DNA of 64,000 bases from Granulicella paludicola (GTDB taxonomy: Bacteria; Acidobacteriota; Terriglobia; Terriglobales; Acidobacteriaceae), in NCBI RefSeq assembly GCF_025685545.1, contig NZ_JAGSYC010000019.1, positions 1-64,000 of the forward strand. Reading direction: 5' to 3'. Positions 162 through 22,602 of this stretch are shown one piece after another (positions within the stretch are counted from its first letter, which is position 1; the number at the start of each line of letters is the position of its first letter). A model generated the notes under the pieces. The model was not told the origin of the DNA. It ran no database searches and was given only the letters and a program-made list of their open reading frames with translations. A program made the position numbers and the translations under genes.

Positions 162-1622
162 TCACACCCCGCGAACGGCGAAGAGTGCGGTATGAAGCAT
201 GATGGCGATGTCCAGTGAAATTGAGCGGTACTTCAGGTAGTAAAGATCGTAGTGCATGTTTTCGTGGATCGGGTAGCGGCGGTCTTCACTAATCTGCCAG
301 ATGCCAGTGAGGCCAGGTTTTATGGCGAGTCTTCGCATTTGGATCTCTGAGTAGGTGGCGACGATGAACGGCATCTCCGGCCGCGGACCAACCAGGGTCA
401 TATCGCCCCGCAGAATATTTAGGAGCTGTGGCAACTCATCGATGCTGCTCTTACGCAGCCAACGCCCAACGCGCGTGATGCGAGGGTCAGCAGAGTCGAG
501 CGGGCTTGTCTTGTAGCCACACATCTCGGTATGCATACTTCGAAATTTTAGGATGGTAAACGGCTTGCCGTGAGTGCCTATACGCGTTTGGCGAAAAAGG
601 ACAGGCCCGCGCGTGTCCAGCATGATAGCCGCAGCCGCAAGCAGCATGGGAATGCCTGTGATCACGAGCAATAGCGATGACGCGGAGATATCAAGTGCTC
701 GCTTCAAAGCGTCGTAGAGCGTACGTTTGTTTGCGGTGTGAATCCCATAAAGTAGCCGCCCATCGAGCTCGAAGTAGTCGACCTGCACGCTGCCTGGGCT
801 ATGCGGCTCAGCTCCAAAAAGGATGGTTGCGCCTGCGCGTTTGCTTTGGTCAATCACATACTTCAACTGCGCGCTCGAAGCCATAGGTGATGCGATCACA
901 ACAAGATTTACACCTTCCGATCGCAAAGTCTCTTCATTAAAGCGCTCAGGACTGTAGATGTTCACATGGGCTGCGTTGCGTTCAAATGCCCTTGCATAAT
1001 CGGGACTGTGCGCATCGCTAAAGCAGACTGTGGGGAGCAGCCTACTTTTGGGAGAGCGAAGGAGTGCGTCAAGAACAGGGATAGCGTTCTCAGCATGGCC
1101 GTAAACGGCTGCGCGATATAATCCTGCGCGGCGCGAACGGATATAGAAGAGCAATGCACAGTAGGCCTGCTTCTGGATGATGAGAAACAATGAGAGCAGT
1201 ACGATCGTAAGGCCGCCAAATTCGAACGTGCTTCGCACGCCGAGAAAAAGAGCGCAGGGCGCAAACATCATTGAAGCATAGAAGACGGCGTTGAGAATGC
1301 ATGCGGTTTCGCGGAGACCTAACAGGCTTCCTCCGATGCGATATGCTCCGGCGCGATCAAGCAGAACTACCAGCACCGCCGATACAACCAATGCCGCTGC
1401 GTGAAGTCGCATCTGCGATGCATGAAGTTGCAGGTGCAGCATGGAAAGCTGTGCTAAGTAGAACGATAGTTCGATAGCGCACAGCGCGGTCAGTACATCA
1501 AGACACACCTCTACCAGCTGGATTCTAGACAGGCGAAGGATGGCGTGATTGCCGACTGCGGCAGGTACCTTACTGGAAGGGTAGCCTGCATTCTGCGATA
1601 TAGCTGTTGTGCTGGTTGCCAT
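162..1622 (-). CDS. Exopolysaccharide priming glycosyltransferase (polyprenyl-phosphate sugar phosphotransferase, WcaJ/WbaP type)
   Basis: 486 residues. The N-terminal half has about five hydrophobic membrane segments and a nucleotide-binding-like domain. The last 190 residues are a bacterial sugar transferase domain with [28 protein letters not shown] and PGLTGIWQI, the usual catalytic and membrane-associated motifs. Family members transfer a sugar-1-phosphate from a nucleotide sugar to undecaprenyl phosphate at the inner membrane, starting each repeat unit. The ATG at 1622 is preceded by GGAG with a 4-base gap. It is transcribed away from the plus-strand EPS genes, so the 360-bp gap probably holds divergent promoters. 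The sugar used cannot be read from the sequence. Length is normal for the family. Confidence 0.93.
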
Positions 1623-1982
1623 AAGGCTCCGTCAATACAGGATTGGATCAACCGGGACTTGCAGACTGCCTGTAGGCGATGGCTGCATCTATGGCCCCGG
1701 TGGAACAGCTTCGTTCCGGTAATTACACAGAGTATGAAGGTTCCCAGCGCGGGGTGTGTCGGCTTTGAACTGCACACCCGTTGTATTTGCGTGCCGGGTG
1801 TAACCCTGCTGGCGTCACAATCATGAGATTCCGTTTATTGCCGACAACCCGTCCTCAGCGACTCGTTACTATCACTGCATCCAACACATGTGCTCGATCT
1901 ATGTGTTCTTCAGTTTCTGCCAAACACTCACAGCTATCGAAGCCAGGAATTAAGAACGGCTCAATGAAAGAGACGGTTACCG
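1623..1982. other. Divergent intergenic region of the EPS island
   Basis: 360 bases between the minus-strand priming transferase and the plus-strand EPS genes. Short open frames cross it but none has a credible ribosome site or recognisable protein. It should carry promoters for both directions, though I cannot point to convincing -35/-10 pairs or an operator. Confidence 0.5.
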
Positions 1983-3434
1983 ATGATGGAAAGTGTCACT
2001 CCAGATCGACCCAAGCACAGCCATGCGATGTTAGCGCCCGATATAGAAACTTCGTGCCTCATCGTCGGCGCCGGCCCGGCAGGTCTCGGACCTCTCGTGG
2101 CCGCAGCAACCTCGGATAAGCTGCAGGCCTTATTGAAGGCTGGCATTACGATCGTGGAGGCAGGTCTGGTAGCTGGGTGCGGGGAGATTGGACGCTACGC
2201 GATTTCTTCTGACAGTGCTGCCGAAGCCTTTCTCGATGCACTCTCCGGCACGGAGTATCCGCAGCTTGTTAGGTTAAAAGATCATCACTTGGCCGCAGCT
2301 ATTCGCGGACGCATTGGTCAAGCTATTCCGCTGAAGCAGGCTGCTCAGTTCCTGCAACTTGTGGGTGAATCGATCTGTGGGATGGTGAAAGAGTCCAGAC
2401 GCGGCCATGTGTTCATGCAGCATCGGGTGCTTTACACACGACGCACGAACGATGGTGGTTGGATTACAACCGTGCGCGACGAGCAGCAGGGGACGCTTCG
2501 GCAGATTCGAAGCAAGTCTGTAATCGTTGCGACGGGAGCGGAGCAACCGCTGTCACGCCTCTACTCAGAGGAAGTTGCCGGTCAAGCCCTGTTGCCTAAG
2601 TATGCAGGCAAGGTTTTGCAGAGCGGTTACGCGCTTACCGCGGGTGGCTTGCGCCAAATTAGAAGAGAGTTGGCAGCAAAAAGCGATCCTCGCGTAGCGA
2701 TTGTCGGCGGTTCGGCTAGCGCAGGCGCCGTCGCGAAAGCGTTGTTGAATGACAAGACGCGAATTCCGTTTGGATCAAACGGCGTGACCATTGTCCATCG
2801 TCGACCACTTCGCATCTTCTATCCATCTGCTGCCGACGCGCTGAGTGATGGCTACACTGATTTTGAGCCGCAGGACATTTGTCCTGTCAGTGGCAGAGTG
2901 TACAGACTGGCGGGCTTTCGTCTTGAGTCGCGCGAGTTGATGATGCGTGTGCTGCGTGTAGGTGGAAGAGATGTTGAACCGCGTGTGAGACTGCAGCAGG
3001 TTGTTCCGGAAAACACAGCGGAAACCGCGAAGATCCTGGACGATGCACACATTATTGTAGCGGCGATGGGGTATCGACCTAGGGCGTTGACGGTGCTTGA
3101 CGCATTCGGCAATCGGATCGCATTGCAGTGTGATACCGACGACATGGTTCCCATGGTCGGAGGAAGTTCGAATGTTTTAAGTGCGTCCGGTCGGGCGATC
3201 ATGGGTCTTTACGGGGTTGGTCTGGCCTCGGGCTTTGTGCCGCGTGGTCGGTTCGGTGGTGAGCCAAGCTTCAAAGGGCAGGCCAACAGCCTTTGGCTTT
3301 GGCAACACGATATCGGTGAGCAGATCGCCACTGCAGTACTGCACGACGCAACTGCTATGAACGTATCCAACCGCTCAGTGGTCCCCAGTTCATATGTTGA
3401 AGTGCCCCGAGAGCAGCAGGAAGGTGTCGCATGA
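1983..3434 (+). CDS. FAD/NAD(P)-binding oxidoreductase (N-monooxygenase-like fold) in EPS cluster
   Basis: 483 residues. A first dinucleotide-binding motif GAGPAG (about 29-34) opens a FAD Rossmann fold. VIVATGAE (about 180-187) is the usual ATG motif, and a second Rossmann motif GGSASA (about 242-247) should bind NAD(P)H. This two-motif layout matches flavin monooxygenases and lysine/ornithine N-hydroxylases, but I cannot name the substrate. Its stop overlaps the start of the DegT aminotransferase by 4 bases (ATGA), so the two are translationally coupled and probably act on the same sugar or amine. Two ATGs lie in tandem at 1983 and 1986 and no strong ribosome site is visible. A reductase or dehydrogenase role is equally open. 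Confidence 0.8.
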   Translation: MMESVTPDRPKHSHAMLAPDIETSCLIVGAGPAGLGPLVAAATSDKLQALLKAGITIVEAGLVAGCGEIGRYAISSDSAAEAFLDALSGTEYPQLVRLKDHHLAAAIRGRIGQAIPLKQAAQFLQLVGESICGMVKESRRGHVFMQHRVLYTRRTNDGGWITTVRDEQQGTLRQIRSKSVIVATGAEQPLSRLYSEEVAGQALLPKYAGKVLQSGYALTAGGLRQIRRELAAKSDPRVAIVGGSASAGAVAKALLNDKTRIPFGSNGVTIVHRRPLRIFYPSAADALSDGYTDFEPQDICPVSGRVYRLAGFRLESRELMMRVLRVGGRDVEPRVRLQQVVPENTAETAKILDDAHIIVAAMGYRPRALTVLDAFGNRIALQCDTDDMVPMVGGSSNVLSASGRAIMGLYGVGLASGFVPRGRFGGEPSFKGQANSLWLWQHDIGEQIATAVLHDATAMNVSNRSVVPSSYVEVPREQQEGVA

Positions 3435-4645
3435 TGGGTGTAAAGCGCGAAATACGAATGGCGAAACCGAATCCACCGAAGCTGAGCGAGCATCTTGCCG
3501 AGCTAATTGCGCTGGAGCAGTCTGGGACCTTTTCAAACTATGGCTTCCAGGCTCGTCGTCTTGAGCGAGAGCTTATCGAACAACTTTTTGATAGTGGCCA
3601 TTGCCTCTCAGTCTGTAATGCAACTATGGGGCTTATGGTCGCGATTCGCAGTACGTTGTGGCGGCGCAAGAAACAACGCAAATACGCCTTGATGCCCTCC
3701 TATACGTTTGCTGCTACGGCCCATGCAGCGCTGTGGTGCGGGCTGACGCCACTTTTTTGCGATGTAGATGCCGACACTTGGCTCGGTTCTGAAGCGGCCG
3801 AAGAAGAGCTTCTATGTCGTTATAAAGATGAGATCGCCGTGGTTATTCCCTGTACGACCTTCGGCAATTCGATCGACATGGCGCGCTATGATCGCTATCA
3901 CCGGCGGTACGATGTCGACATAGTTGTGGACGCTGCAGCCGCGCTCGGCAGCAAAGGACATGAAGGCAAGCAGTTTGGACAGGGAAGTCGTTGGCCTATT
4001 GTGTACTCGATGCACGCCACCAAGCCTTTTTCCAGTGGCGAAGCTGGCGTGATCTACTCTGCGGACTCCGATTGGATCGAAGAGATGCGCGCGATGGCCT
4101 CTTTCGGCTTCGAACAGCCGCGTGTCGCTATGCTCCCAGGTTTGAATGCAAAGATCTCTGAGATCGCTGCGCTTACGGCATTCCTCCAGCTGCAACGCTT
4201 TGAGGAGGTTGTGGATCAGCGAGCGCGACTTAAAGTGCAGTATGAGATAAGTCTTCCGGAGTTGAAGCGGCAAAGTGTGAATGGTCAGCGTCAAGTAGCC
4301 TCCTACGAATTCGTACTTCTGCCTGAGGAGATAGCTCATCTTCGTTCGCACATGATCGAAGATCTCAAGGATCGAGGCATTGGAACAGGTTGCTACTTTA
4401 GCCCTCACCTCGCAGAGCAATCGTATTTTGCGCAGTGCAGCGTGTCAGGACCACTTCCAAACACCGAAACCCTGAGCCATCAAGTGCTGACTCTGCCGAT
4501 GTATGACACGATGACACGTGAAGAGGTGCAATACGTCTCGGATGAATTGCTCGCAGTGTTGTCGAAGTATACCGAAAGGGATTTAACCCCGACTGCCCAA
4601 CCGTGTATACCAGAACCGGCTTACGTTATGGGACAACCAGCATAG
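3431..4645 (+). CDS. DegT/DnrJ/EryC1/StrS-family PLP-dependent sugar aminotransferase
   Basis: 404 residues, normal for the family. SMHATKPFSSGEAG (from about 193) holds the expected PLP-binding lysine (K198), and VVDAAAALGS supplies the Asp (D167) that contacts the pyridine nitrogen. Family members aminate keto-sugars bound to nucleotides (UDP- or dTDP-4-keto or 3-keto hexoses) using glutamate. The start at 3431 overlaps the stop of the FAD oxidoreductase as ATGA, with AGGAAGG just upstream inside that gene. A second ATG at 3434 is possible. Its place in the EPS run suggests it makes an amino sugar for the polymer; no dedicated acetyltransferase or ketosugar dehydratase is adjacent, although rfbB lies 17 kb away. 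Confidence 0.9.
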   Translation: MMGVKREIRMAKPNPPKLSEHLAELIALEQSGTFSNYGFQARRLERELIEQLFDSGHCLSVCNATMGLMVAIRSTLWRRKKQRKYALMPSYTFAATAHAALWCGLTPLFCDVDADTWLGSEAAEEELLCRYKDEIAVVIPCTTFGNSIDMARYDRYHRRYDVDIVVDAAAALGSKGHEGKQFGQGSRWPIVYSMHATKPFSSGEAGVIYSADSDWIEEMRAMASFGFEQPRVAMLPGLNAKISEIAALTAFLQLQRFEEVVDQRARLKVQYEISLPELKRQSVNGQRQVASYEFVLLPEEIAHLRSHMIEDLKDRGIGTGCYFSPHLAEQSYFAQCSVSGPLPNTETLSHQVLTLPMYDTMTREEVQYVSDELLAVLSKYTERDLTPTAQPCIPEPAYVMGQPA

Positions 4646-4682
4646 CGATGACAAAGGTCTACACGGAGATGAGGGCAAAGAA

Positions 4683-5585
4683 TTGAAAGCAGGTGGTCGT
4701 GACATCGCGAGCGATAGTGCAGCGCCTTTGCCGCTGGTGTCTGTCATCATCCCTTATTACAGTCAAGGGTCATATATCGCGGAGACGATTCAAAGCGTGC
4801 GTCGCCAGACGTATCCAAATATTGAATTAATCGTCATCGATGACGGTTCGGCAGAAGTTCATGCAGAGGCTTTGCGCAAGCTGGAAGGCCTGGTGGTGCA
4901 TCGTATTCCGAACTCCGGGCCACCCGCAGCTCGCAACTTCGGATTTCATCAGAGCTCCGGCGAATACCTCGTTTTTCTTGACGCTGACGACGTTCTAACT
5001 GACGAGTCGATTCAAAAGAATCTTCATATGCTGCTTGCCAATCCGAAGGCGGCACTTGCTTTCGGCGCGGTTGAAGTGATCGATTCTCACGGACAGACAC
5101 TAATTAAAAATCGTGTTTGCCTCCCAAGACGTAACTATTTTTTGATGCTGCTGGAGACGAATCCAATCTGGTCTCCCGGGGCAGCTATGGTGCGTCGCAC
5201 CGCATTCAAACAAGCTGAAGGCTTTCGAGACATGCGGCAATTTCAAGCCGATGACTACGAGTTTTATTTGCACTTGGCACGTATAGGGGACTTTTGCCAG
5301 CATGACGAGTGCGTGCTTCGATACCGCCGCCACAGCAGCAATATGTCAAACGATCGTGAGCGCTTATTATGGGCCACACTCGAGGGTCTCGATAGGCTGG
5401 CGGCGGAGCATCAACTCGGCTTGCTCGAACGATTGCAGCTATGGCACGGACGTCGACGTTGGCAGCATGAGTTTAGCGACCGAAAAGGGTTGCTTGCGGA
5501 ACTGAAGTCTTTCTACTTTAAGATTGCGACGTTTTGGAATATCGATGCGCTTTATTTGTTGCAAAAGCTCACCTCGAGAGATTGA
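4683..5585 (+). CDS. Family 2 glycosyltransferase
   Basis: 300 residues with a GT-A fold. SVIIPYYSQ opens the domain, VIDDGS and FLDADD are the nucleotide-sugar and metal-binding motifs, and NPIWSPGAAM and QADDYEF complete the acceptor side. It has no membrane segments, so it is cytoplasmic and adds one sugar to the lipid-linked repeat. The start is TTG at 4683, since no in-frame ATG precedes the first beta strand; AGGG lies upstream. The whole protein, including the basic tail RRRWQHEF, resembles the C-terminal half of the flippase fusion at 9888-12002, so the two are paralogues. The sugar specificity is unknown. Confidence 0.9.
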   Translation: MKAGGRDIASDSAAPLPLVSVIIPYYSQGSYIAETIQSVRRQTYPNIELIVIDDGSAEVHAEALRKLEGLVVHRIPNSGPPAARNFGFHQSSGEYLVFLDADDVLTDESIQKNLHMLLANPKAALAFGAVEVIDSHGQTLIKNRVCLPRRNYFLMLLETNPIWSPGAAMVRRTAFKQAEGFRDMRQFQADDYEFYLHLARIGDFCQHDECVLRYRRHSSNMSNDRERLLWATLEGLDRLAAEHQLGLLERLQLWHGRRRWQHEFSDRKGLLAELKSFYFKIATFWNIDALYLLQKLTSRD

Positions 5586-5711
5586 TCTTCAAATGTGGTT
5601 GAGAGCCGACGCAGACCACCTTGCCAGCATTGATAGTTACATAAGGATCAGGCCCGCGGCGTCATTCATTCGTCGCTTAAATCTGCCATCCTCCAGTTAC
5701 TCAGGAGCCTT

Positions 5712-7835
5712 GTGAATCCATCCATTTACCGCGAGTTGACACTCCGTGACTTCATGCAGTCCTTTCTGCGCAGAAAGAGCTTGTTCCTCGGAACCGTCGG
5801 GGCCGGCGTCTTGCTGGGTGTTTTGGTATGCGCGCTTATTCCACGAAAATATGAAGCTACAGGTACGATCGAACTCGATACGCCCTCGGCAGATGGCCTT
5901 GATCGAGGTTCGCTCATGGGTGGCGCGCCGTCTAGTTCCGATGCTATGTCCGCGGACATTGCGATTCAGACACAGGCCAAGATCCTGCAGTCGGATGAAC
6001 TCGCTCTCCGCACGATCACTGCTCTGCACCTGGCAGACAAAACGTCCTCGTCGGTAAAGCCTGCCGGAGGAAATACTAAGGACCAGCCGGCGCTGAAGGC
6101 GCTGACCTCATTTCGAACCGCGCTTACGGTGAAGCCAATAGCTGGCACTAAGCTCGTACAAATCTCTTTTTCGAACAAAGACCCGCGCGTTGCGGCGGCT
6201 GTTGTCAATGAACTAGTTAGCCAGCTGACGCAATTTAGTGAAGAGCGCATGTCAGCTTCGACCAATGAGTCGACCCAGGTGCTGACGCGGCAGCTTGAAG
6301 GACTTCGCACGCAGAGCGAAGATCTGCAAAAGCAGGTCGCCGCTATGCAGTCGCAGACGGGGCTTTACGAGCAGAGCACCTCTGATGGACGCAATGACGG
6401 GCAAGCGTACTCCGCGATTCTCTCGCAGTTTCAACGCGCAGCCGCTACGCTGAGTGATGCCACACAGAACCGGATACTGAAGGACTCCATCTACAATGTA
6501 GCGAAGACGGGTGACCCTGAACAGATCTCAAGCCTGGCAGGTAACTCGATGGGCGGGTCTTCATCCGGGCTTGCGAACTCGCTGGGGACGATCGAGAATT
6601 TGCGTGTGAGTGAAAGTCAAATGCAAACGCAGCTCGACCAGCTGCGCGTGAAGTTTGGCCCGGATTATCCGAAGGTCGCTGAACTACAGGCTGGTATCGC
6701 AAGCTCGGAAAAATCAATTCAGGCTGAGACTCAACGCATCAAGGAACGCGCACAAACAGATGCAACCATTGCAGACCAGACATGGAAGAGTGCGCAAGAC
6801 AACTATAACCAACTGAAAGCTCAGGCCGACTCGCTTAACAGCAAGACCGTCAACTACCGTATCACCCTGCAGGAGGCTGACGAAAGCCGCACGCTTTACA
6901 CGGATCTGATGAAGAGGTTGAAGGAAGCTGGAGTTGTTCAGGGCCTTCACTCGACGAACGTCACAGTAGTTGATAAGGCAGTTGTGCCTCGTCTGCCATC
7001 GCGACCAGTGGTCCCCCTATACATGGCTGTCGCTCTAGCGCTCGGCATCTTTCTCGGCGTCTTTGCTGTTGCCGCTGCAGAACTATTGGACGACCGTATT
7101 TATGAGTACGTTTCCGTGGAAGAGATGGGACTGAAGATCGCAGGTATCGTACCGCACTTGCTCGGAGGAGACGGGATTACGGTGGCAAATGGGGTGCTCG
7201 GCCTATATCACAACGCGATCCGCACAGTTCGTAACAATGCGACGCCTTCTCGACAAGGTGTCGCTGGTACCGTGGTTGCAGTTATGCCGGCAACACCTCA
7301 TGAGAGCTCGCGACAATTCGCACTCAGTCTTACAGGCAATGCCGCCCAAGCGGGGCAGCGTGTTCTGTTTGTCGAAGCCAATGCGTCGGCGAGAGAAATA
7401 CGTGGGCTGAAGACTGGAGTGGAGAAGCGGAAGATAGGTGACGTTTCTCCTGTAGTTGAGAAAAGCAAGGGTAAGAACCTTCCAGCTGTATGTCATTTGA
7501 GCAACGAGCTCACGACGGCGGGTTTGCCTATTACGCAAGATGATGCGGGACTTCAGCTTCGCCTGCAGGAATGGCGAGATCAATACGACGTGATCTTCAT
7601 CGATGCATCAGCGCAACTCTTCGATGCGGATGCGGCGGCTCTGTGTGATAACGCAGACGTGGTGTTACAGGTGGTCACATATGGCGTGACGACTAAGACC
7701 TCGCTTCGGCGATCGAGCACACTTCTGAGCCAGCGATCCGGCAAGAAGCCCGCTGTCATCATTCAGGATGTTCCGCTACGTTCGGTTGCGTTTACAAATT
7801 ACTACGGCTGTGCGCCGGCACCTGGCAATATCTAG
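5712..7835 (+). CDS. Wzz/GumC-like polysaccharide co-polymerase with degenerate BY-kinase domain
   Basis: 707 residues. A membrane segment at about 24-46, a long periplasmic coiled-coil section (roughly 180-430) and a second membrane segment at about 436-460 form the chain-length/co-polymerase module, with the GNVR-type PSRPVVPL before the second helix. The cytoplasmic tail (about 518-700) has the BY-kinase layout, but the Walker A region reads ATPHESSRQFAL where active kinases have a GxGKST-type loop, and the A-prime motif is VLFVEAN rather than VLLIDAD. A Walker B-like DVIFIDAS remains and there is no tyrosine cluster. It is probably a pseudokinase controlling polymer length without phosphorylation. 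GTG start with AGGAG 4 bases upstream; the exporter follows 9 bases after the stop. Confidence 0.9.
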   Translation: MNPSIYRELTLRDFMQSFLRRKSLFLGTVGAGVLLGVLVCALIPRKYEATGTIELDTPSADGLDRGSLMGGAPSSSDAMSADIAIQTQAKILQSDELALRTITALHLADKTSSSVKPAGGNTKDQPALKALTSFRTALTVKPIAGTKLVQISFSNKDPRVAAAVVNELVSQLTQFSEERMSASTNESTQVLTRQLEGLRTQSEDLQKQVAAMQSQTGLYEQSTSDGRNDGQAYSAILSQFQRAAATLSDATQNRILKDSIYNVAKTGDPEQISSLAGNSMGGSSSGLANSLGTIENLRVSESQMQTQLDQLRVKFGPDYPKVAELQAGIASSEKSIQAETQRIKERAQTDATIADQTWKSAQDNYNQLKAQADSLNSKTVNYRITLQEADESRTLYTDLMKRLKEAGVVQGLHSTNVTVVDKAVVPRLPSRPVVPLYMAVALALGIFLGVFAVAAAELLDDRIYEYVSVEEMGLKIAGIVPHLLGGDGITVANGVLGLYHNAIRTVRNNATPSRQGVAGTVVAVMPATPHESSRQFALSLTGNAAQAGQRVLFVEANASAREIRGLKTGVEKRKIGDVSPVVEKSKGKNLPAVCHLSNELTTAGLPITQDDAGLQLRLQEWRDQYDVIFIDASAQLFDADAAALCDNADVVLQVVTYGVTTKTSLRRSSTLLSQRSGKKPAVIIQDVPLRSVAFTNYYGCAPAPGNI

Positions 7836-7844
7836 GAGGGCAAG

Positions 7845-8723
7845 ATGAAACCTGTAGTGCTACTTGCCATCTTAGGCACCGTGCTCACGTCACCGTTGTT
7901 TGCGCAGAAGGAAAGCCTTCTCATCGGCCCCGGCGATCAAGTGCATGTGGAGGTGTTTGATACACCTGAACTGAACTCAACTGCGCGTGTAAGTGACAAA
8001 GGGGATCTGCCGTTGCTTATGGGGGGAAGCGCACATGTCGCTGGTCTTACTCCAGAGCAGGCGGCCCAGGAAGTGGAGCGCAATTTGGTTCATCGGAGAC
8101 TGATGAATAAGCCGCAGGTGCTGGTCACAGTGCAACGGTCCGCTACGCAAAATGTGACAGTTTTTGGTCAGGTAGTGCGTCCTGCTGCGTACGAAATTGC
8201 TACGCCAAGGCCGCTGACAGAGATTCTCGCGCAAGCTGGCGGATTTACAGAAACAGCCGATCATCACGTGTCGATTCGAAGGGCAAATGCTAAATCCGTG
8301 GAGACAGTCTTCGTATCGAATGACCCGAAGACCGATGTCGCGCAGGATGTTTTCATCTACCCTGGGGACGTTGTTACCGTTCCCAAGCAGGGTCTCATAT
8401 ACATTCTGGGGGACGTCAATCGGGCCGGTGGTTTTCCGATGGGTAACGATGCCTCGGGAATGACGGTGTTGCAAGCCATCGCTACCGCTGGCGGAACCGC
8501 ACATACAGCGAAGAGCCAGGCGAAGCTCATCCGTCGCGAAAATGGCGACGGGTACAAGGAAATCCCATTGAATCTAAGTGCCATGCAAAAAGGGAAAGAG
8601 CCTGACATGGTGATGCAGCAGAACGACATCGTGTACGTACCCTTCGGCTTCCTGAAAAATGCAGCGCTCGGTGCAACAGGCATCGCGTCGGCAGCGACCT
8701 CGGCGGTGATCTATGCAAAGTAG
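7845..8723 (+). CDS. Polysaccharide export protein (Wza/GumB-like, SLBB domains)
   Basis: 292 residues. A signal peptide ends near SPLFAQ. The Poly_export domain follows (LLIGPGDQVHVEVFDTPEL), then SLBB repeats (VTVFGQVVRPAAYE and IYILGDVNRAGGF). The family forms the periplasmic and outer-membrane export channel together with the Wzz/GumC partner encoded immediately upstream. AGGAGGG precedes the ATG at 7845 with good spacing. No lipobox cysteine is visible, so unlike E. coli Wza it does not look like a lipoprotein. The last 11 bases overlap the next glycosyltransferase. The short C-terminal hydrophobic stretch (FLKNAALGATGIASAATSAV) may sit in or on the outer membrane. Confidence 0.93.
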   Translation: MKPVVLLAILGTVLTSPLFAQKESLLIGPGDQVHVEVFDTPELNSTARVSDKGDLPLLMGGSAHVAGLTPEQAAQEVERNLVHRRLMNKPQVLVTVQRSATQNVTVFGQVVRPAAYEIATPRPLTEILAQAGGFTETADHHVSIRRANAKSVETVFVSNDPKTDVAQDVFIYPGDVVTVPKQGLIYILGDVNRAGGFPMGNDASGMTVLQAIATAGGTAHTAKSQAKLIRRENGDGYKEIPLNLSAMQKGKEPDMVMQQNDIVYVPFGFLKNAALGATGIASAATSAVIYAK

Positions 8724-9891
8724 CGTCCTTGACTTTCCAAGAGCAGTTGAAGACAGCATCGATAGACCTGACCGCGTGAAGGTGTATCACCTGCTTGATG
8801 AGGCCGAGCCTTTCTCTGAGGTCAATGGCGGCGCAATCTCGCGCTGGGCCGCAAACGTACTACGAGATAGCGAAGAGACGATCATCTGCCCCGATTACGA
8901 TAGCTCGTGGAGTTTTGACGAAAAGCGTCTCCAAAAGCTGTCGAATTGGCAGAGAACGGATATCATTCATCCGATCTTGTACCGTATGCCATGGATGTTA
9001 CAGAAGGCTTTCTACCTTCGCCTCTTTAGGCCTCTCTTGAAGCAGATGAAGTCCGGTGACATCCTGTACGTTCACAATCGTCCGGAGTGTGCTTCGGTGC
9101 TCAGCACCGTGGCTGCGAAGTACGGCATCACCGTAGTGCTTCACATGCATAACTCGCATCTCACGGTCGCGAAGTCTTCGCAACTTCGAGCGCTGAAGCA
9201 TACGCCCATCGTCTTTGTAAGCACTTTCCTGCAGCGTGAGATCGAGCAAAAGTTCCCAGGTCACTTTGCTCGAACCTATGTCGTTTACAACGGCGCTGAT
9301 GTTCAGCGTTTTTATCCTGCGCCATTTCGAGATAGCAAGCGGACGACTGTCGTTTATACAGGTCGCCTGATTGGTTACAAGGGTGCGCACATCCTTCTGG
9401 AAGCGATGCGGTTACTGCAGCAGAGAGGTGTCGATATCCAGTGCCGGATTGTCGGCGGATCATGGTTTGGTAAGAGTCGGACAACCGCTTACATGAAGAG
9501 CCTTCGACGCAATTGTCCGTCCAACACCGAGCTTGTAGGCTACAAGGCCGGCGCTGAGTTAGCGGAGATACTCCGCGAATCAGATATTTTCTGCTGTCCC
9601 TCCATCTGGAACGATCCATTCCCCCTGGCTCCCATTGAGGCTATGGCCACGGGATTGCCTGTAGTTGCATCCCGTGTTGGCGGCATTCCAGAGGCTTTAC
9701 AGTATGGCGGTGGTTTGATGGTTCCTCCCAAAGATCCCTCAGCACTGGCCGATGCAATGCAGGCGCTTACGGAAGACTCCGATTACAGACTGCGGCTTCG
9801 AGAAGAAGGCATCCATGCAGCAGACCGCAAATTCCGCTGGTCGAATGTGCGCGAACAGTATGAGACGGTCATCGAAAAGGTATCTGCATGA
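8713..9891 (+). CDS. Family 4 glycosyltransferase
   Basis: 392 residues with a GT-B fold. The N-terminal domain contains the acceptor region and HMHNSH. The C-terminal domain has VVYTGRLIGYKG, a phosphate-binding basic region, and the EX7E-type motif in FPLAPIEAMATGLPVVAS. Retaining GT4 enzymes use nucleotide-activated hexoses. The ATG at 8713 lies inside the 3' end of the exporter gene (11-base overlap), and the stop overlaps the next gene as ATGA, so it sits in the middle of a tightly coupled operon. The donor sugar cannot be predicted. Confidence 0.9.
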   Translation: MQSSVLDFPRAVEDSIDRPDRVKVYHLLDEAEPFSEVNGGAISRWAANVLRDSEETIICPDYDSSWSFDEKRLQKLSNWQRTDIIHPILYRMPWMLQKAFYLRLFRPLLKQMKSGDILYVHNRPECASVLSTVAAKYGITVVLHMHNSHLTVAKSSQLRALKHTPIVFVSTFLQREIEQKFPGHFARTYVVYNGADVQRFYPAPFRDSKRTTVVYTGRLIGYKGAHILLEAMRLLQQRGVDIQCRIVGGSWFGKSRTTAYMKSLRRNCPSNTELVGYKAGAELAEILRESDIFCCPSIWNDPFPLAPIEAMATGLPVVASRVGGIPEALQYGGGLMVPPKDPSALADAMQALTEDSDYRLRLREEGIHAADRKFRWSNVREQYETVIEKVSA

Positions 9892-12002
9892 GTAGTGGTA
9901 GTTCGGACCATGGGCTCAGATCCAGTGTTGGCTGGATGTTTATTGGGCAATGCAGCGGATATGTGCTCCGTGTCGTTTACTTCATCCTTATTGCGCGAGC
10001 GCTGGGAGTGGTTGAGTACGGCGCGGTTGCCGCTGCATTCGCGTTCGTAAGCCTTGGCGCACAGTACAGCCGTCTGGGCTCAGGTATGGTGTTGCTGCGG
10101 TACGTTTCTGCTGATCGACCGCAGTTCAGCGTGTATTGGGGAAATGTTCTAGCCACTACGCTTGCTGCAAGTGGCATCATCACGCTGGTGTTTACGCTGG
10201 TTGCTCCGCATATCCTCGACGCGAAGAGTGTTGGTCTTGTAGCTTTCACGGCTGCCGCAAGCTGCGTCTTCGAGCAAATCACAATCAGCACAACCCAGGT
10301 ATTTCAGGCCTTCCAGCGAATGGGATTCACGGCTGGCCTCAACTTGCTCACTTCACTGTTCCGAACAATCGCTGCGGCGGGCCTTCTGCTCACGGTTCAT
10401 CATGCAACGGCGAAGGAGTGGGTGATCCTTTCGATGATTGTCTCCGCCCTCGCAGCTGCGATTGGTGTCACCGCGGTTACGGTCTGCTTTGGGCGGCCAA
10501 CTCTAGATCTGAAAGTCTTCCAGTCCAGAGCGGGCGAGGGCATTGAATATGCCTTCGCAGCGTCCACAAACAGCGCTTACGACGACCTCGACAAAACCAT
10601 GCTGAGTCACTTCGGCATGACCGCCGCAGTAGGCATCTACGCCATGGCTTACCGTGTGATCGAGATGGCCACCGTACCAATCACCTCGATCCAACTCGCA
10701 GTTGAGCCACGTCAGTTTGCTCTCGGAGAGGAGGGCGTACTCGAGTCGGCGGCACTCGGTAAGCGTCTACTCTCAAAGTCGGTACTGCTTAGTTTGGCCA
10801 CAGCGGCCATCCTGTTCGCGGCTGCACCCGTGCTTCCCTTATTAGTGGGCAAGAACTTTAGCGAGTCCGTGAGCGCACTGCGGTGGCTCTGCCTGATCCC
10901 GTTATTTCGCAGTGTCCACCACTTAACGGGGAGCGTATTGACCTGCTCGGGAAAACAGCGCCTCCGAACAGCCAACCAGCTCGCGACAGCAGCCTTCAAC
11001 TTTCTATTGAACCTTTGGATGATTCCTCGCTTCGGCTGGGTCGGGGCCGCGTGGGCATCGCTATTGAGCGATGGAGCGCTCGGATTGATGAACTGGTTGA
11101 CCCTGCGCCACGTTCTGCGCAAGAAAATCAGCCGGGATCTTGCAGCCACTGCACCAAGCCTGGCACCGCCTGTCATCTCGATCGTTATCCCATACTTTAA
11201 TCAGGAGATGTATCTTCGCCACACGGTCAACAGTGTGAAAGCTCTGAGCTATCCCCATGTCGAAGTAATTGTGGTTGATGATGGTTCTACCGTCTCCGCT
11301 GCAAGTGTCCTGGAGGGTATAGATTCTGTGCAGATCGTCCGTACGGCTAATCGCGGTGTCTCTGCGGCACGTAACCTCGGGGCGAAGCTTAGCTCGGGCG
11401 ACTACTTCATCTTCCTTGATGCAGACGATTTGCTAGAAAGTTCCGCTATCGAAGCGCATCTCAAGTTGCTCGAGAGGTCGCCCAAAGCTTCGATGAGTTT
11501 CGGCGCCACGCAGATCATCAGTGCGACCGGGAAGATTCTGGTGAAACCCCACGTTTGCAGGCCTCGCCGCGACTACCTAAGGTCTATGCTGGTGAGCAAC
11601 CCAGTCGCCTGCCCGGGGGCGGCTATGATCTCGAAGGAGGCGTTCCATCGGGCCGGCGGCTTTGACGAACGTTTCAAGATGGCTGAGGACTATCTGCTCT
11701 TTCTTCGTATCGCTGCCCGTGAACAGATCGTTCGCCACGCCCATTGTGTGATTTCGTATCGAAGTCATCCCGCAGGTGTCTCTCAGGACAAGGCTGCAAT
11801 GCTTGCGAGTACCTTGACTGCGCTTGACCTGGTAAAAAGTGATCTGAGCGCCGAAGATCAAAAGTATCTGCAGCACGCTCGTTGGCGTTGGAGACACGAG
11901 TATGAGGAGAATAAGGGTCTTCGTTTTGCTTGCAAACGTTTTTATTGCAAGTTGCATGCCATGATGACAGTTCCCGTTTCTGCTTACTTTGGGCGCGAAT
12001 AG
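9888..12002 (+). CDS. Fusion of a polysaccharide flippase (Wzx/MATE-like) with a family 2 glycosyltransferase
   Basis: 704 residues in one uninterrupted frame. Residues 1 to about 420 are highly hydrophobic with repeated helices and resemble oligosaccharide flippases (SVGWMFIGQCSGYVLRVVYF at the start). From about 426, PPVISIVIPYFNQ begins a full GT2 domain with VVDDGS, FLDADD and CPGAAM. No start codon or ribosome site lies near the junction, so the GT2 is not a separate gene. The GT2 half resembles the free GT2 at 4683-5585 along its entire length. The fusion would place a transferase on the cytoplasmic face of the flippase. The start overlaps the previous stop as ATGA. I do not know this architecture as a common one. 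Confidence 0.88.
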   Translation: MSSGSSDHGLRSSVGWMFIGQCSGYVLRVVYFILIARALGVVEYGAVAAAFAFVSLGAQYSRLGSGMVLLRYVSADRPQFSVYWGNVLATTLAASGIITLVFTLVAPHILDAKSVGLVAFTAAASCVFEQITISTTQVFQAFQRMGFTAGLNLLTSLFRTIAAAGLLLTVHHATAKEWVILSMIVSALAAAIGVTAVTVCFGRPTLDLKVFQSRAGEGIEYAFAASTNSAYDDLDKTMLSHFGMTAAVGIYAMAYRVIEMATVPITSIQLAVEPRQFALGEEGVLESAALGKRLLSKSVLLSLATAAILFAAAPVLPLLVGKNFSESVSALRWLCLIPLFRSVHHLTGSVLTCSGKQRLRTANQLATAAFNFLLNLWMIPRFGWVGAAWASLLSDGALGLMNWLTLRHVLRKKISRDLAATAPSLAPPVISIVIPYFNQEMYLRHTVNSVKALSYPHVEVIVVDDGSTVSAASVLEGIDSVQIVRTANRGVSAARNLGAKLSSGDYFIFLDADDLLESSAIEAHLKLLERSPKASMSFGATQIISATGKILVKPHVCRPRRDYLRSMLVSNPVACPGAAMISKEAFHRAGGFDERFKMAEDYLLFLRIAAREQIVRHAHCVISYRSHPAGVSQDKAAMLASTLTALDLVKSDLSAEDQKYLQHARWRWRHEYEENKGLRFACKRFYCKLHAMMTVPVSAYFGRE

Positions 12003-12026
12003 ATAAATCTGGCCTGGGAGTGCTTG

Positions 12027-13256
12027 TTGAATATCGTCATCGTAAACGATAGCGCCACAATCAACGGTGGTGCCGCGAAGGTTGCTCTCACGGAGGCAAA
12101 AGCTCTTGCGGAGTGCGGACACAAGGTGCACCTGCTGTGTGGGGCAGGACCCATTGCTGCAGATCTTGCGAGCACTCGCAACCTGGTTATCCATCAACTT
12201 GATATTCCCGATATCAACGTCGATCCGAGTCGGATTCGCGCCATGAGCTTGGGTCTCTGGAACCCAGGTGCGCACAGATTTACCCAAGAGCTACTTTTGT
12301 CGCTCGACGCGACGCAGACAGTAGTACACGCTCACAGTTGGACGAGGGCGCTTACGTCGAGCGTCCTGCAAGCCGCGCTCGAAAGTAGGTGTTCTGTTGT
12401 ACTCACGTTGCACGACTATCTGATGGGTTGTCCGCAAGGAACATTTTTCCAACAACGTAAAGGTTGTCCCTGCACACTCGTGCCCATGGGCATTTCCTGC
12501 CTTGCAAGTAATTGTGACACCAAGGGCTATACGCACAAACTCTGGCGTGCGGGTAGAAAGTTTGTGCAGGACAAGGTCAGCGGAGCTCCACGAAATATTC
12601 GGAACTTCATCTATCTCTCGAACGCATCGTTGAATCAACTGAAGCCGTACTTACCCCCCGATGCAAACTACTACCGCCTGCCCAATCCGATCGACGTACA
12701 GCGACTCACACCTGCGGCCGTCGAGCGTTCCGATATATTCTGCTTTGCTGGTCGTTTCGTTCCGGAGAAGGGCGCGCTGTTGTTCGCGCAAGCGGCCCAG
12801 GCGCAAGCCATATCGGCGCGCTTCATCGGTGACGGTCCGCAGAGAGATCAGATCGTTCGCATTATGCCCTCGGCGCAGATGTCCGGCTGGATGAATAGCT
12901 GGGACTTATCGCGAGCGCTTCGCGACGCCCGTGCTCTTATCTTTCCATCTGTATGGAATGAAGTGCTCGGCCTTACTGTTCTCGAAGCCGCAGCTCAAGG
13001 TGTGCCTTCAATCGTCCCTAAAGGGTGTGGCGCTGAGGAGTCTGTTCTCGATGGCATCACGGGACTTCACTTTGAGAGTGGTAACGCGAGCGACCTGGAA
13101 GCAAAGATCTCCATGCTGAAAGATCCGGTGTTCGCGGCAAAGCTCGGTCGCGAGGCGTATGAAACATTTTGGTCCACGAAGGAATGGACCATGGCGAAAC
13201 ATATAGAAAATCTTGAAGCAATCTATGGAGAGATCCTCGAGAAGCGCCAAAGTTAG
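12027..13256 (+). CDS. Family 4 glycosyltransferase with Cys-rich insert
   Basis: About 409 residues with a GT-B fold. The N-terminus has NGGAAKVALTEAKALAECGH, a typical GT4 opening. A cysteine-rich insert follows LHDYLMGCP (about 130-175), with CPC and two further cysteines that could bind a metal or form disulfides. The C-terminal domain has CFAGRFVPEKGALLF and SVWNEVLGLTVLEAAAQGVP. Two TTG codons stand in tandem at 12024 and 12027; I prefer 12027 because GGGAG (12016-12020) then has a 6-base gap. The stop overlaps the stop of the opposing WecG-like gene. It is the last gene of the plus-strand EPS run. Confidence 0.88.
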   Translation: MNIVIVNDSATINGGAAKVALTEAKALAECGHKVHLLCGAGPIAADLASTRNLVIHQLDIPDINVDPSRIRAMSLGLWNPGAHRFTQELLLSLDATQTVVHAHSWTRALTSSVLQAALESRCSVVLTLHDYLMGCPQGTFFQQRKGCPCTLVPMGISCLASNCDTKGYTHKLWRAGRKFVQDKVSGAPRNIRNFIYLSNASLNQLKPYLPPDANYYRLPNPIDVQRLTPAAVERSDIFCFAGRFVPEKGALLFAQAAQAQAISARFIGDGPQRDQIVRIMPSAQMSGWMNSWDLSRALRDARALIFPSVWNEVLGLTVLEAAAQGVPSIVPKGCGAEESVLDGITGLHFESGNASDLEAKISMLKDPVFAAKLGREAYETFWSTKEWTMAKHIENLEAIYGEILEKRQS

Positions 13257-14140
13257 GCCTTCGATACTAGCGACTTTCCTCGAGGAGACTTTTCATTCCT
13301 TGCGCGAAGTTCTGCAGGCGCATGGTTCGCTTTGAGAGTAGTTCTAGCCTGAGTCGGAACATCGCTGCGTTTTCTTCCGAAGAATTGCCGCAGAACGACT
13401 GATAGGAACTGCAGGTTGCCCACCAGGTATCTTTTCCAAAGTCTTCGGGGTTCGATACAGAGGCGCCACAGCCACTCGCAGCCAGCTCTCTGCCAGAATA
13501 TCGGTGCTCGTTTGGTAAAGCCTCCAACCAATTCGAAGCTGCCACCCACACCGATCATTACCTTGGCTCGTACGTGCAGGTGTTCCTCGATCCAGTACTC
13601 AGCCTTCGGCGCCCCGAGAGCTACAAAAACGATGTCGGGATTGGCAGCATCGATACGATCCGATACTTCTTTATCCAGCGCAGAATCTTCATCGAACCCA
13701 AACGCAGGACAGTCGATTCCAGCCACGATCAGGCCGGGATAACGTGCGCTCATGCGTTCCATGGTCGCTTCTGCTGCCCCGGGTCGGCCACCCAGAAAGT
13801 ACACGCTCTTGCCGTAGATTGCCGCCTCTTCACAGAGCCGCACCATCAACTCAGTTCCATTGACGCGACCGCGCAAAGACTGGCCCAGCGCAGACGCTAC
13901 CCAAAGCAAGGGGACGCCATCTGCAGTGCTCACCGAGGCGTTCGCGATCAGCCTCGCAAGGCGAGGTTCGTTAGCGGCAAGGGTAACAAACTGCGCGTTC
14001 ACGGTGACGACTTGCTGGCATCTCGCGCACGGGTCGCTCGCGAGTTGCAGAATCTCTTGAACTGTCTCCGGCAAAGACAGTGGATCGAGAACGGTCTTCC
14101 CAATCGTCACACGCTTTCGTGGCTTGATAGCTATACTCAC
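13253..14140 (-). CDS. WecG/TagA/CpsF-family glycosyltransferase (GT26)
   Basis: 295 residues. The central TADGVPLLW, the VYFLGGRPGAAE stretch and VFVALGAPKAEYWIEEH are the hallmarks of this family, and the tail IEPRRLWKRYLVGN is a typical membrane-associating end. Members add the second sugar to an undecaprenyl-linked precursor, such as UDP-ManNAcA or ManNAc transfer in enterobacterial common antigen and teichoic acid. Its TAA stop overlaps the TAG of the plus-strand GT4 tail to tail. It lies 69 bases downstream of the LamG-glycosidase gene on the same strand and may be co-transcribed with it. About 40 extra residues beyond the conserved core are basic and low in conservation. Confidence 0.92.
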   Translation of the reverse strand: MSIAIKPRKRVTIGKTVLDPLSLPETVQEILQLASDPCARCQQVVTVNAQFVTLAANEPRLARLIANASVSTADGVPLLWVASALGQSLRGRVNGTELMVRLCEEAAIYGKSVYFLGGRPGAAEATMERMSARYPGLIVAGIDCPAFGFDEDSALDKEVSDRIDAANPDIVFVALGAPKAEYWIEEHLHVRAKVMIGVGGSFELVGGFTKRAPIFWQRAGCEWLWRLCIEPRRLWKRYLVGNLQFLSVVLRQFFGRKRSDVPTQARTTLKANHAPAELRARNEKSPRGKSLVSKA

Positions 14141-19902: not shown

Positions 19903-20778
19903 CTAGTAAATCGTATCCAGCAGCAACTGCTTCAAGTAGTTGCCATAGGTGCTTTTACCGAGCTTGGCTGCCAGCTGCTTCAACTCGTCATAGGTGATAT
20001 ATCCCTGCCGATAGGCAATCTCCTCAGGACAAGCCACTTTTAGCCCCTGACGCTGTTCGATCGTCTGGATGAAATTGCTCGCCTGCAGCAGCGACTCGTG
20101 CGTGCCCGTATCCAGCCACGCCACGCCGCGACCGAGGATCTCGGTGCGCAGCTGGCCCTTCTCGAGATACCAACGGTTCACATCCGTGATCTCCAGTTCG
20201 CCACGCTCGGAAGGCTTGATCGACTTAGCCACATCTACGATCTGCTTGTCGTAGAAGTAGATGCCCGTCACCGCATAACGCGACTTCGGCTTGGACGGCT
20301 TCTCTTCAAGAGACAGCACCTTGCGGTCTTTGTCGAACTCCACTACGCCGTAGCGTTCTGGATCGGTCACAGCATACGCAAACACTGTCGCGCCTGCGGT
20401 CTGTTGCGCCGCATCCGCAAGCGATTTCGGAAAATCATGCCCGTAAAAAATATTGTCGCCCAGCACTAGACAGCATCCTTCTCCGGCGAGAAACTCTTCG
20501 CCGATCAAAAACGCCTGCGCCAGCCCATCAGGAGAAGGCTGCACCGCGTAGGTGATCTTAATGCCCCACTGCTCGCCCGTGCGAAGCAGCTCTTGGAACG
20601 ACGGCGTATCGCGCGGCGTGGAAATTACCAGCACATCGCGAATCCCCGCCAGCATCAGCGCCGACAGCGGGTAGTAGATCATCGGCTTGTCATAGATCGG
20701 CATCAGCTGCTTCGACACCGCCTGCGTCACCGGATGAAGCCTTGTACCCGATCCGCCCGCGAGAATAATCCCTTTCAC
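19903..20778 (-). CDS. rfbA: Glucose-1-phosphate thymidylyltransferase
   Basis: 291 residues, the usual RmlA length. [17 protein letters not shown] at the N-terminus is the nucleotide-binding signature, and [25 protein letters not shown] and EEKPSKPKS are conserved. It makes dTDP-glucose from dTTP and glucose-1-phosphate, the first step of dTDP-rhamnose synthesis. The GTG start at 20778 overlaps the rfbB stop as GTGA, and a perfect GGAGGT (20785-20790) lies 6 bases upstream inside rfbB. A longer open frame to 20886 is an artefact of reading into rfbB. The gene is second in an rfbB-rfbA operon. Confidence 0.96.
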
Positions 20779-21869
20779 TTGACCACCTCCGTGCGATCGT
20801 TCCGGCCGCTGTAGTTTTGAGTCACCCACTGTTGATAGCTGCCGCTGGTCACGCCATCGACCCACGCCTTGTTCGTCAGATACCACTCCACCGTCTTACG
20901 CAGCCCCGTCTCGAAACTTTCCTCCGGCGTCCATCCAATCTCGCTCTCGATCTTGTAAGCATCGATGGCATAGCGCCGATCATGACCAGGTCTGTCCTTC
21001 ACGCTTGTGATCAGCTGCGCATGCGGCTTGTACTTCGAGTCCGGCACCAGCTCATCAAGCAGCGAACACAGCGTCTCCACAACCTCGCGGTTCGATCGCT
21101 GGTTGCATCCACCCACGTTGTACGTCTCGCCGATCCTACCCTTGGCCAACACCGCCGCAATCGCCTTGCAGTGGTCAACCACGAACAGCCAATCGCGTAC
21201 CTGCATCCCGTCGCCATAGATCGGCAGTGGCTTGCCCGCAAGCGCATGCGTAATCATCAGTGGGATCAGCTTCTCCGGAAACTGATAAGGCCCATAGTTG
21301 TTCGAGCAGTTCGTCACCAGCACCGGCAGCTTATACGTGTGCACCCACGCCCGAGCCAGGAAGTCCGACGCCGCCTTGGACGCTGCATACGGGCTGTTCG
21401 GAGCATAAGCCGTCGTCTCTGCAAACGCAGGATCGTTCGGCTCTAGCGTGCCATACACCTCGTCGGTCGACACATGCAGAAAACGGAACTCCTTCTGCTC
21501 CTCTTCGCTCAACGTCGCCATGTACGCGCGCGCCGCCTGCAGCAGCGTAAATGTGCCATCGATGTTCGTCTTCAGAAACGCCTCAGGCCCCAGGATCGAA
21601 CGATCGACGTGGCTCTCCGCCGCAAAGTGAACAATCGCCCGAGGCTTGTGCTCAGCCAGCAGCCGGGACACCAATTCTCCGTCGCATATATCGCCCTGCA
21701 CGAAGGTGTAGTCCGGGCGGTGCTGTACCGTCACCAGCGTCTGCAGGTTGCCCGCGTACGTTAGCTTGTCCAGGTTCACCACCGGACCTAGCTCTTCGCC
21801 CAGCCAGTGCAACACAAAGTTGCCGCCGATAAACCCAGCTCCACCCGTTACAAGAATGCCGTTCGTCAT
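20775..21869 (-). CDS. rfbB: dTDP-glucose 4,6-dehydratase
   Basis: 364 residues. An extended SDR fold opens with [15 protein letters not shown] (GxxGxxG). HVSTDEVYG supplies the Thr-Asp-Glu catalytic set, and [11 protein letters not shown] holds the YxxxK pair. The enzyme converts dTDP-glucose to dTDP-4-keto-6-deoxyglucose. I chose ATG 21869 because GGAG lies just upstream and the fold begins directly after; a frame to 21905 adds 12 residues. The gene diverges from rfbC across about 170 bases and is translationally coupled to rfbA. Its product could also feed the DegT aminotransferase at 3431-4645. Confidence 0.96.
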
Positions 21870-22041
21870 GCGTCTCCAAAATCGTCGAGTCGTACTCACG
21901 GACATGCATCAACGCGACTGCCCGGAAGCCACTATCTATCATAGGGCTTAGCTCTTCCCAACAGAAAGCTGCACAGTTCGAGGAGGTATCCCCGGGCGCT
22001 GCCTTGGAATCTCCACAGGCGATTTGATCTAATGAGTCAAC

Positions 22042-22602
22042 ATGGAAATCGTCGACACCCCGCTTCATGATGTTAAGCTCGTCCGACCTAAACGCTTCGG
22101 AGACGAGCGCGGCTGGTTCGCAGAGGTCTTCAACGCAAAGAACTTCGCCTCCGCCGATCTCCCCACGAGCTTCGTGCAGGATAACCAATCCTTCTCACGA
22201 CGCGGCGTTCTGCGTGGGCTCCACTACCAGCTCGGGCAGCCCCAAGGCAAGCTCGTGCGTGTTCTGTCTGGCCACATCTGGGACGTCGCCGTGGACCTCC
22301 GCAAAGGCTCGCCCGACTTCGGCAAGTGGGCTGGCTTCGATCTGCGCGGGGATGAGCTTGAGTTTCTCTGGATTCCCGAAGGCTTCGCTCACGGCTTCCT
22401 GGTTCTTTCCGAAACCGCCGAAGTCCTCTACAAAACAACCGACTACTATCACCCCGTCGGCGAGCGGTGCGTCCGTTGGGATGACCCCACTCTTGCCATC
22501 ACCTGGCCCATGGCAGACATCGGTATCCCCGCTGTCTCAGCAAAAGATGCCGTCGGCGCACTTTTGACCGAAGCCGAGTTGCCAGAACCTTACACCTCTT
22601 GA
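22042..22602 (+). CDS. rfbC: dTDP-4-dehydrorhamnose 3,5-epimerase
   Basis: 186 residues, normal for RmlC. A cupin fold with DERGWFAEVF, GVLRGLHYQ (catalytic H61), QGKLVRVLSGHIWDVAVD, and the YKTTDYYHP region near the second active-site residue. It epimerises C3 and C5 of the 4-keto-6-deoxy sugar. It diverges from rfbB and ends at a 15-bp hairpin shared with the opposing Wzi-like gene. The final reductase, rfbD, is not in this window. Confidence 0.96.
   Translation: MEIVDTPLHDVKLVRPKRFGDERGWFAEVFNAKNFASADLPTSFVQDNQSFSRRGVLRGLHYQLGQPQGKLVRVLSGHIWDVAVDLRKGSPDFGKWAGFDLRGDELEFLWIPEGFAHGFLVLSETAEVLYKTTDYYHPVGERCVRWDDPTLAITWPMADIGIPAVSAKDAVGALLTEAELPEPYTS

Follow-up and report, generated by a model that had tools for sequence, protein, structure and literature searches.

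A single-frame fusion of a MOP-type flippase and a GT2 glycosyltransferase in an exopolysaccharide island of Granulicella paludicola

Introduction

Proteins that carry an enzyme and a flippase or flippase-like domain in one chain are already known. In MprF, as described in an excerpt of PMC8131360, a flippase membrane domain, a flexible loop of nine residues and a cytoplasmic synthase are combined in a single chain by which lysyl-phosphatidylglycerol is both made and translocated; movement of the domains was suggested by the authors, in the same excerpt, to let the synthase take up and release the lipid. AglD of Haloferax volcanii, active in a lipid-linked glycan pathway, has a glycosyltransferase domain fused to a UPF0104/MprF-like domain for which a flippase role has been predicted (excerpt of PMC5898192). 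Here we describe F1, a gene at positions 9888-12002 of a stretch of 64,000 nucleotides from Granulicella paludicola (contig NZ_JAGSYC010000019.1, positions 1 to 64,000; the whole stretch is called the window below), in which a MOP/Wzx-type flippase and a family 2 glycosyltransferase (GT2) are joined in one reading frame. On balance, we lean towards the view that its product is a bifunctional inner-membrane flippase and GT2 that would tether a late sugar transfer beside export.

F1 resembles MprF in that the flippase comes first and the enzyme last, and in that a lipid-linked product would be made and moved by one chain. It differs from MprF in the flippase superfamily, in the synthase, which in MprF is a double GNAT domain using aminoacyl-tRNA, and in the substrate, which in MprF is a phospholipid, and the comparison concerns how the two proteins work; neither an MprF-type flippase nor a GNAT synthase domain was detected in a Pfam scan of F1 at E 0.01. 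The glycosyltransferase domain of AglD is also of the GT2 type but precedes the membrane domain, which belongs to UPF0104/COG0392 whereas that of F1 is a Polysacc_synt (MOP) domain. The usual Wzx flippase (PF01943) is a separate protein, and the flippase half of F1 is a normal member of this family by profile, but with a complete GT2 appended to it. What appears to be new is the fusion of a MOP flippase with a glycosyltransferase. Among the matches listed in a literature search that covered titles and abstract openings of open-licence papers, none reported a glycosyltransferase in one chain with a Wzx/MOP flippase.

The fused gene and its two halves

The gene and its parts are as follows:

9888..12002, plus strand, F1, MOP/Wzx-type flippase plus GT2, 704 amino acids, ATG start, full-length counterpart in genome G638
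9888..11144, plus strand, flippase half, residues 1-419, Polysacc_synt, with the basic tail RHVLRKKISRD
11145..11168, plus strand, linker, residues ~420-427
11169..11999, plus strand, GT2 half, residues 428-704, with D464-D465 (in DDGS), D511-x-D513 and E600-D601

F1 is a genuine fusion: its 704 codons form a single open frame without interruption, as an earlier note on this DNA had read it, and a stop codon or frameshift near 11150 was looked for in the sequence and is absent, so that the fusion stands. Both halves are recognized by Pfam well above the respective cut-offs, Polysacc_synt (PF01943) at residues 13-271 with 69 bits against 28.2 and Glycos_transf_2 (PF00535) at residues 431-587 with 102 bits against 23.3. 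Because the stand-alone flippase homologues stop near residue 420 in the alignment and the GT2s start near residue 428, F1 consists of a whole flippase including its tail, a short linker and a whole GT2.

DDGS, DxD and ED are motifs with functional roles in GT2 enzymes. In an alignment of 23 sequences D511 and D601 were invariant and D465, D513 and E600 nearly so, and all of these residues are intact in the GT2 halves of F1 and of its counterpart in G638, which agrees with the earlier statement that the GT2 motifs are all present. F1 scored below the cut-offs of the NCBIfam equivalogs, among them TuaB (40 bits against 580), TuaG and EpsD, and its best glycosyltransferase equivalog reached 75 bits against 182; a named function is therefore not assignable.

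A full-length counterpart in a second genus

The fused protein was searched against 703 genomes (G000-G702, with G000 the window's own). In part of this search scoring was limited to two or three candidates from each genome, the matches were ordered by E-value, and the search covers fusions that are not split by a contig end. Among the matches listed, full-length matches were obtained in 2 of the 703 genomes, G000 and G638, and because of the ordering any further one should have headed the matches. G638, a single contig, represents another genus of the same family; its fusion is 51 % identical to F1 over query residues 8-703, has no stop and is joined at the same site. An artefact of sequencing or assembly, in which two genes lost the stop or frameshift that separates them, could be imagined since homologues of each half of F1 are mostly separate genes, but the presence of the same full-length fusion at the same site in an independent single-contig genome led us to reject it, and the window's genome is estimated to be 100 % complete with 0.79 % contamination. 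We regard this explanation as very improbable.

The earlier note had proposed that the fusion might recur in related exopolysaccharide (EPS) islands. A second genome does carry it, in a related island, but with just two genomes among the matches listed the idea that it is common in the family had to be given up. The opposite possibility raised there, that the homologues are always separate genes, fails on the fused homologue of G638. Long open frames suggested further fusions in G243, G163, G239, G250 and G258, which were rejected since stops separate the frames. None of the plasmid records searched covers at least 80 % of F1, and none of 98 stretches in viral contigs that matched a pattern based on a flippase alignment encodes a relative. 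One scan of genome contigs gave 33 loci at which no best segment starts ahead of F1 residue 362, so that all begin within the GT2 half or shortly before it; no flippase frame of at least 200 amino acids was detected at these 33 loci with a profile of the F1 flippase type. Stand-alone flippase homologues in the same family are up to 55 % identical to the flippase half.

Between F1 and the G638 protein, the flippase halves are 55 % and the GT2 halves 47 % identical, and the linker region (residues 413-427, n = 15) is 6.7 % identical. Differences per site at codon positions 1, 2 and 3 amount to 0.37, 0.30 and 0.68 in the flippase half and to 0.41, 0.36 and 0.68 in the GT2 half. As expected for purifying selection, divergence in both halves is thus biased to third positions, though these approach saturation. 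The flippases of F1 and G638 are sisters (support 100/99) in a tree of 45 flippases, one of which belongs to a GT4 fusion of genome G070. A second tree contains 20 GT2s, with duplicates and six distant or long-branched rows (L025, L026, L056, L057, L060 and L069) omitted, and would allow a single origin of the fused GT2. The simplest reading of both trees would be one old fusion plus some shuffling of GT2s.

The stand-alone GT2 paralogue

A second GT2 gene in the window closes a module of three genes:

1983..3434, plus strand, pyridine-nucleotide-disulphide-type oxidoreductase, first gene of the module
3431..4645, plus strand, DegT/DnrJ aminotransferase, second gene of the module
4683..5585, plus strand, stand-alone GT2, paralogue of the GT2 half of F1

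The GT2 half of F1 had been called a paralogue of this enzyme, and the two are indeed 41 % identical over 278 amino acids. G638 has counterparts of both, with 47 % identity for the fused and 49 % for the stand-alone GT2. A recent duplication of the stand-alone gene was considered and rejected, as G638 holds both and the stand-alone one belongs to its own oxidoreductase-DegT-GT2 module. The three genes of that module have counterparts (53, 53 and 49 % identical) on the G638 contig at about 3 Mb from the fusion, and from these separate locations it follows that the two GT2s have separate partners.

A second fusion and near-fusions

In the window's genome PF01943 and PF13440 each gave two matches, which correspond to the same two genes, and both are flippase-GT2 fusions. 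The second one, F2 (L126:6936-9419, G000:C22:161935-164418, minus strand), encodes 827 amino acids with Polysacc_synt at residues 4-287 and Glycos_transf_2 at residues 500-660. F1 and F2 share 28 % identity over 117 amino acids in the GT2 part; the flippase part is more weakly similar (E 0.005). Judged by these similarities, the flippase-GT2 architecture arose independently a second time in this genome, from different parts, and we take it that flippases and glycosyltransferases of different subfamilies were joined independently within a single genome as Rosetta-stone evidence for physical closeness of the two steps. Among the frames next to F2, one is GT2-like and two resemble acyltransferases by eye.

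A search with F2 in 300 genomes did not confirm a further fusion. Relatives of F2 were examined at eleven loci (L140, L142-L151). At nine of these, which include the remote relatives L148 and L149 and a flippase cut by the contig start in L147, the GT2 frame overlaps the flippase stop or begins at most 36 nucleotides away, on the same strand and in the same order; at the other two (L150 and L151) it lies about 1 kb from the flippase. At L148 (genome G235), a 641-amino-acid protein with two GT2 stretches is encoded at 2697-4622, 27 nucleotides after the flippase gene. The sole plasmid record with at least 80 % coverage of F2, NZ_CP025613.1 of Niveispirillum cyanobacteriorum, was rejected as a fusion since it contains two abutting genes.

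Two other genomes are of interest here. In G098 (L088:10350-13427), a flippase gene ends in TAG and the very next codon, in the same frame, is the ATG that opens a GT2, after which comes a second similar-looking frame; such gene pairs therefore lie near fusion. In G070 (L090:8700-11408), a frame of 902 amino acids encodes a GT4, a long linker rich in Ala, Pro and Glu, and then a flippase. This fusion is like F1 in joining a glycosyltransferase and a MOP flippase in one frame in the same bacterial family, but its glycosyltransferase is a GT4 and stands at the N-terminus. Confirmed in a single genome, it is the weaker case, as the assembly consists of about 190 contigs; in the five relatives compared (G127, G203, G239, G250 and G258, the last with a short flippase frame) the frames are separate.

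These arrangements bear on a different explanation of F1, namely that adjacent operon genes ran together when a stop codon was lost and that the join, in a chain that works, serves only to hold the GT2 at the membrane and to set the stoichiometry, whatever step the GT2 catalyses and with no direct hand-over of substrate. The close spacing of the F2 relatives and the abutting pair of G098 are in line with this, as are the unconserved linker of F1 and the fact that polysaccharide operons place glycosyltransferases beside flippases anyway. This explanation fits less well with the retention of F1 in two genera at about 50 % identity, and with the fusion of two remotely similar pairs in a genome that has just two such flippases (PF01943, PF13440). 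We consider tethering without coupling possible but rather doubtful.

Start codons near the join

One candidate internal start precedes the join:

11088..11090, plus strand, in-frame ATG, codon 401 of F1 within the final membrane helix, GGAG 11 nucleotides upstream, weak candidate for an internal start

According to the earlier note, neither a start codon nor a ribosome site lies at the junction. This holds for codons 405-440, in which ATG, GTG and TTG are all absent, but not for the codons just before them, which include ATG 401 with its GGAG as well as TTG at 400 and 404. Codon 428 of the G638 fusion, the position at which an unfused GT2 would begin, is an in-frame ATG preceded by GAGG 10 nucleotides upstream, and F2 has an in-frame GTG at codon 489 just ahead of its GT2 domain, with no evident ribosome site close by. 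Such codons could yield two products, the full chain and a separate GT2 made by internal initiation; cleavage of the chain would have the same result. For F1, the position of ATG 401 inside the last membrane helix and the clean stretch that follows it speak against this, and we think a second product unlikely.

Membrane topology and structure model

An AlphaFold2 model of F1 had a mean pLDDT (predicted local distance difference test score) of 63 overall, with block means of 92-98 for residues 431-550 and lower values in some later parts. The flippase half, folded without relatives, was mostly below 50 and showed 12 long helices, the last at residues 386-421; as this half is unreliable, the orientation of the domains in the model was left uninterpreted. 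A Foldseek search matched the model to 499 PDB structures at E values no higher than 0.001. The 50 best were led by 2z86, the chondroitin polymerase of E. coli K4, and 6p61, a Leptospira glycosyltransferase, both of which match the GT2 half by fold and also by sequence (residues 423-638); they are unlike F1 in that their deposited molecule names mention no flippase. The PDB entries that match the GT2 half are presumably GT-A folds.

Basic segments of membrane proteins face the cytoplasm according to the positive-inside rule. Since the tail RHVLRKKISRD is basic, the GT2 of F1 would lie on the cytoplasmic side, and together with the even number of helices in the weak model this suggests a cytoplasmic location of the GT2 half.

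The exopolysaccharide island

F1 is surrounded by the following genes:

162..1622, minus strand, initiating sugar-phosphate transferase (Bac_transf, Pfam)
5712..7835, plus strand, polysaccharide co-polymerase (Wzz and GNVR, Pfam)
7845..8723, plus strand, Wza-like outer-membrane export protein (Poly_export and SLBB)
8713..9891, plus strand, GT4 glycosyltransferase, 4-nucleotide overlap (ATGA) with F1
12024..13256, plus strand, GT4 glycosyltransferase, with a counterpart (50 % identical) that follows the fusion in G638
13253..14140, minus strand, WecG/TagA-type glycosyltransferase, 53 % identical counterpart adjoining the G638 fusion

With an initiating transferase, glycosyltransferases, a flippase, a co-polymerase and an export protein, positions 162-14140 hold the set of a Wzx/Wzy-type EPS island. 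In G638, a Wzy_C gene overlaps the start of the fusion gene by four bases and the WecG-type and GT4 genes follow it; a partial frame on the opposite strand, at the edge of the G638 stretch, is 59 % identical to the GT4 encoded at 8713..9891. Contig C26 starts at window position 1, and the island may therefore extend onto another contig.

By eye, the C-terminal kinase-like part of the co-polymerase is without the Walker A lysine (ATPHESSRQF) and may be a pseudokinase. EcpK of Myxococcus is reportedly a pseudokinase of a similar kind. Frames at 19903-22602 resemble, also by eye, genes for dTDP-sugar synthesis of the rfbA/B/C type.

Discussion

Since the island holds an initiating transferase, glycosyltransferases, a co-polymerase and an export protein, the flippase half of F1, an N-terminal MOP flippase of 12 predicted helices, should move an undecaprenyl diphosphate-linked oligosaccharide repeat to the periplasmic face. 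A short linker would keep the C-terminal GT2 where the last helix ends in the cytoplasm, and there the GT2 would add one sugar to the same lipid-linked acceptor. The tether would raise the local concentration of the glycan finished by the GT2 beside the flippase and would fix a 1:1 ratio of the two activities, so that one of the late sugar transfers in a Wzx/Wzy-type EPS pathway, perhaps the final one, could be followed by export with little diffusion. By analogy to the handling of lysyl-phosphatidylglycerol by MprF, the tether would most likely favour finishing and flipping of the same molecule. We infer that both halves act in the same pathway and that substrate is handed over from one to the other; the coupling of sugar transfer to flipping, as put forward in the earlier note, is likewise an inference only. 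To assign the last sugar of the repeat to this GT2 is a guess.

Several observations weigh against this bifunctional reading. Besides the rarity of F1, 42 of the 45 flippase homologues compared are 417-521 amino acids long, too short to include a glycosyltransferase, and for these two reasons the fusion is not required for function. Relatives of F2 are fused at 0 of the 11 loci examined. The tree of 20 GT2s pairs the GT2 of F1 with a stand-alone GT2 of G011 (97/91), the neighbours of which are, by eye, unlike EPS genes, and does not resolve the fused GT2s as a clade; as its nearest relative in this tree stands alone, the GT2 domain can persist by itself. The candidate internal starts of the G638 fusion and of F2 leave room for a free GT2. 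Instead of 12 clear segments, plain hydropathy gives 10 for the flippase half, and the low pLDDT of that half makes the placement of the domains tentative. No Wzy was detected in the window, the best similarity to the G638 Wzy having an E of 0.38; the sole PF04932 (Wzy_C) match of the genome (L127:9123-10622, on contig C19) shares 45 % identity with the Wzy whose gene overlaps the fusion in G638, but lies away from the island, next to non-EPS genes for an MFS transporter and a methionyl-tRNA-synthetase-type protein. Finally, nothing links the GT2 of F1 to the last sugar.

To our knowledge, how Wzx tells completed from unfinished repeats is poorly understood. A fusion of a flippase and a glycosyltransferase names a glycosyltransferase that works next to the flippase and provides a purifiable unit with a 1:1 ratio, in which hand-over of the substrate becomes testable by splitting the chain or by inactivating one of its halves. 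Wzx has been credited with "exquisite substrate specificity" (excerpt of PMC4039749). Tentatively, the Wzx-type flippases of this family may repeatedly have captured a glycosyltransferase that makes their cargo, both flippases detected in the window's genome being of this kind, and the sugar added by the fused glycosyltransferase may be what licenses the repeat for export.

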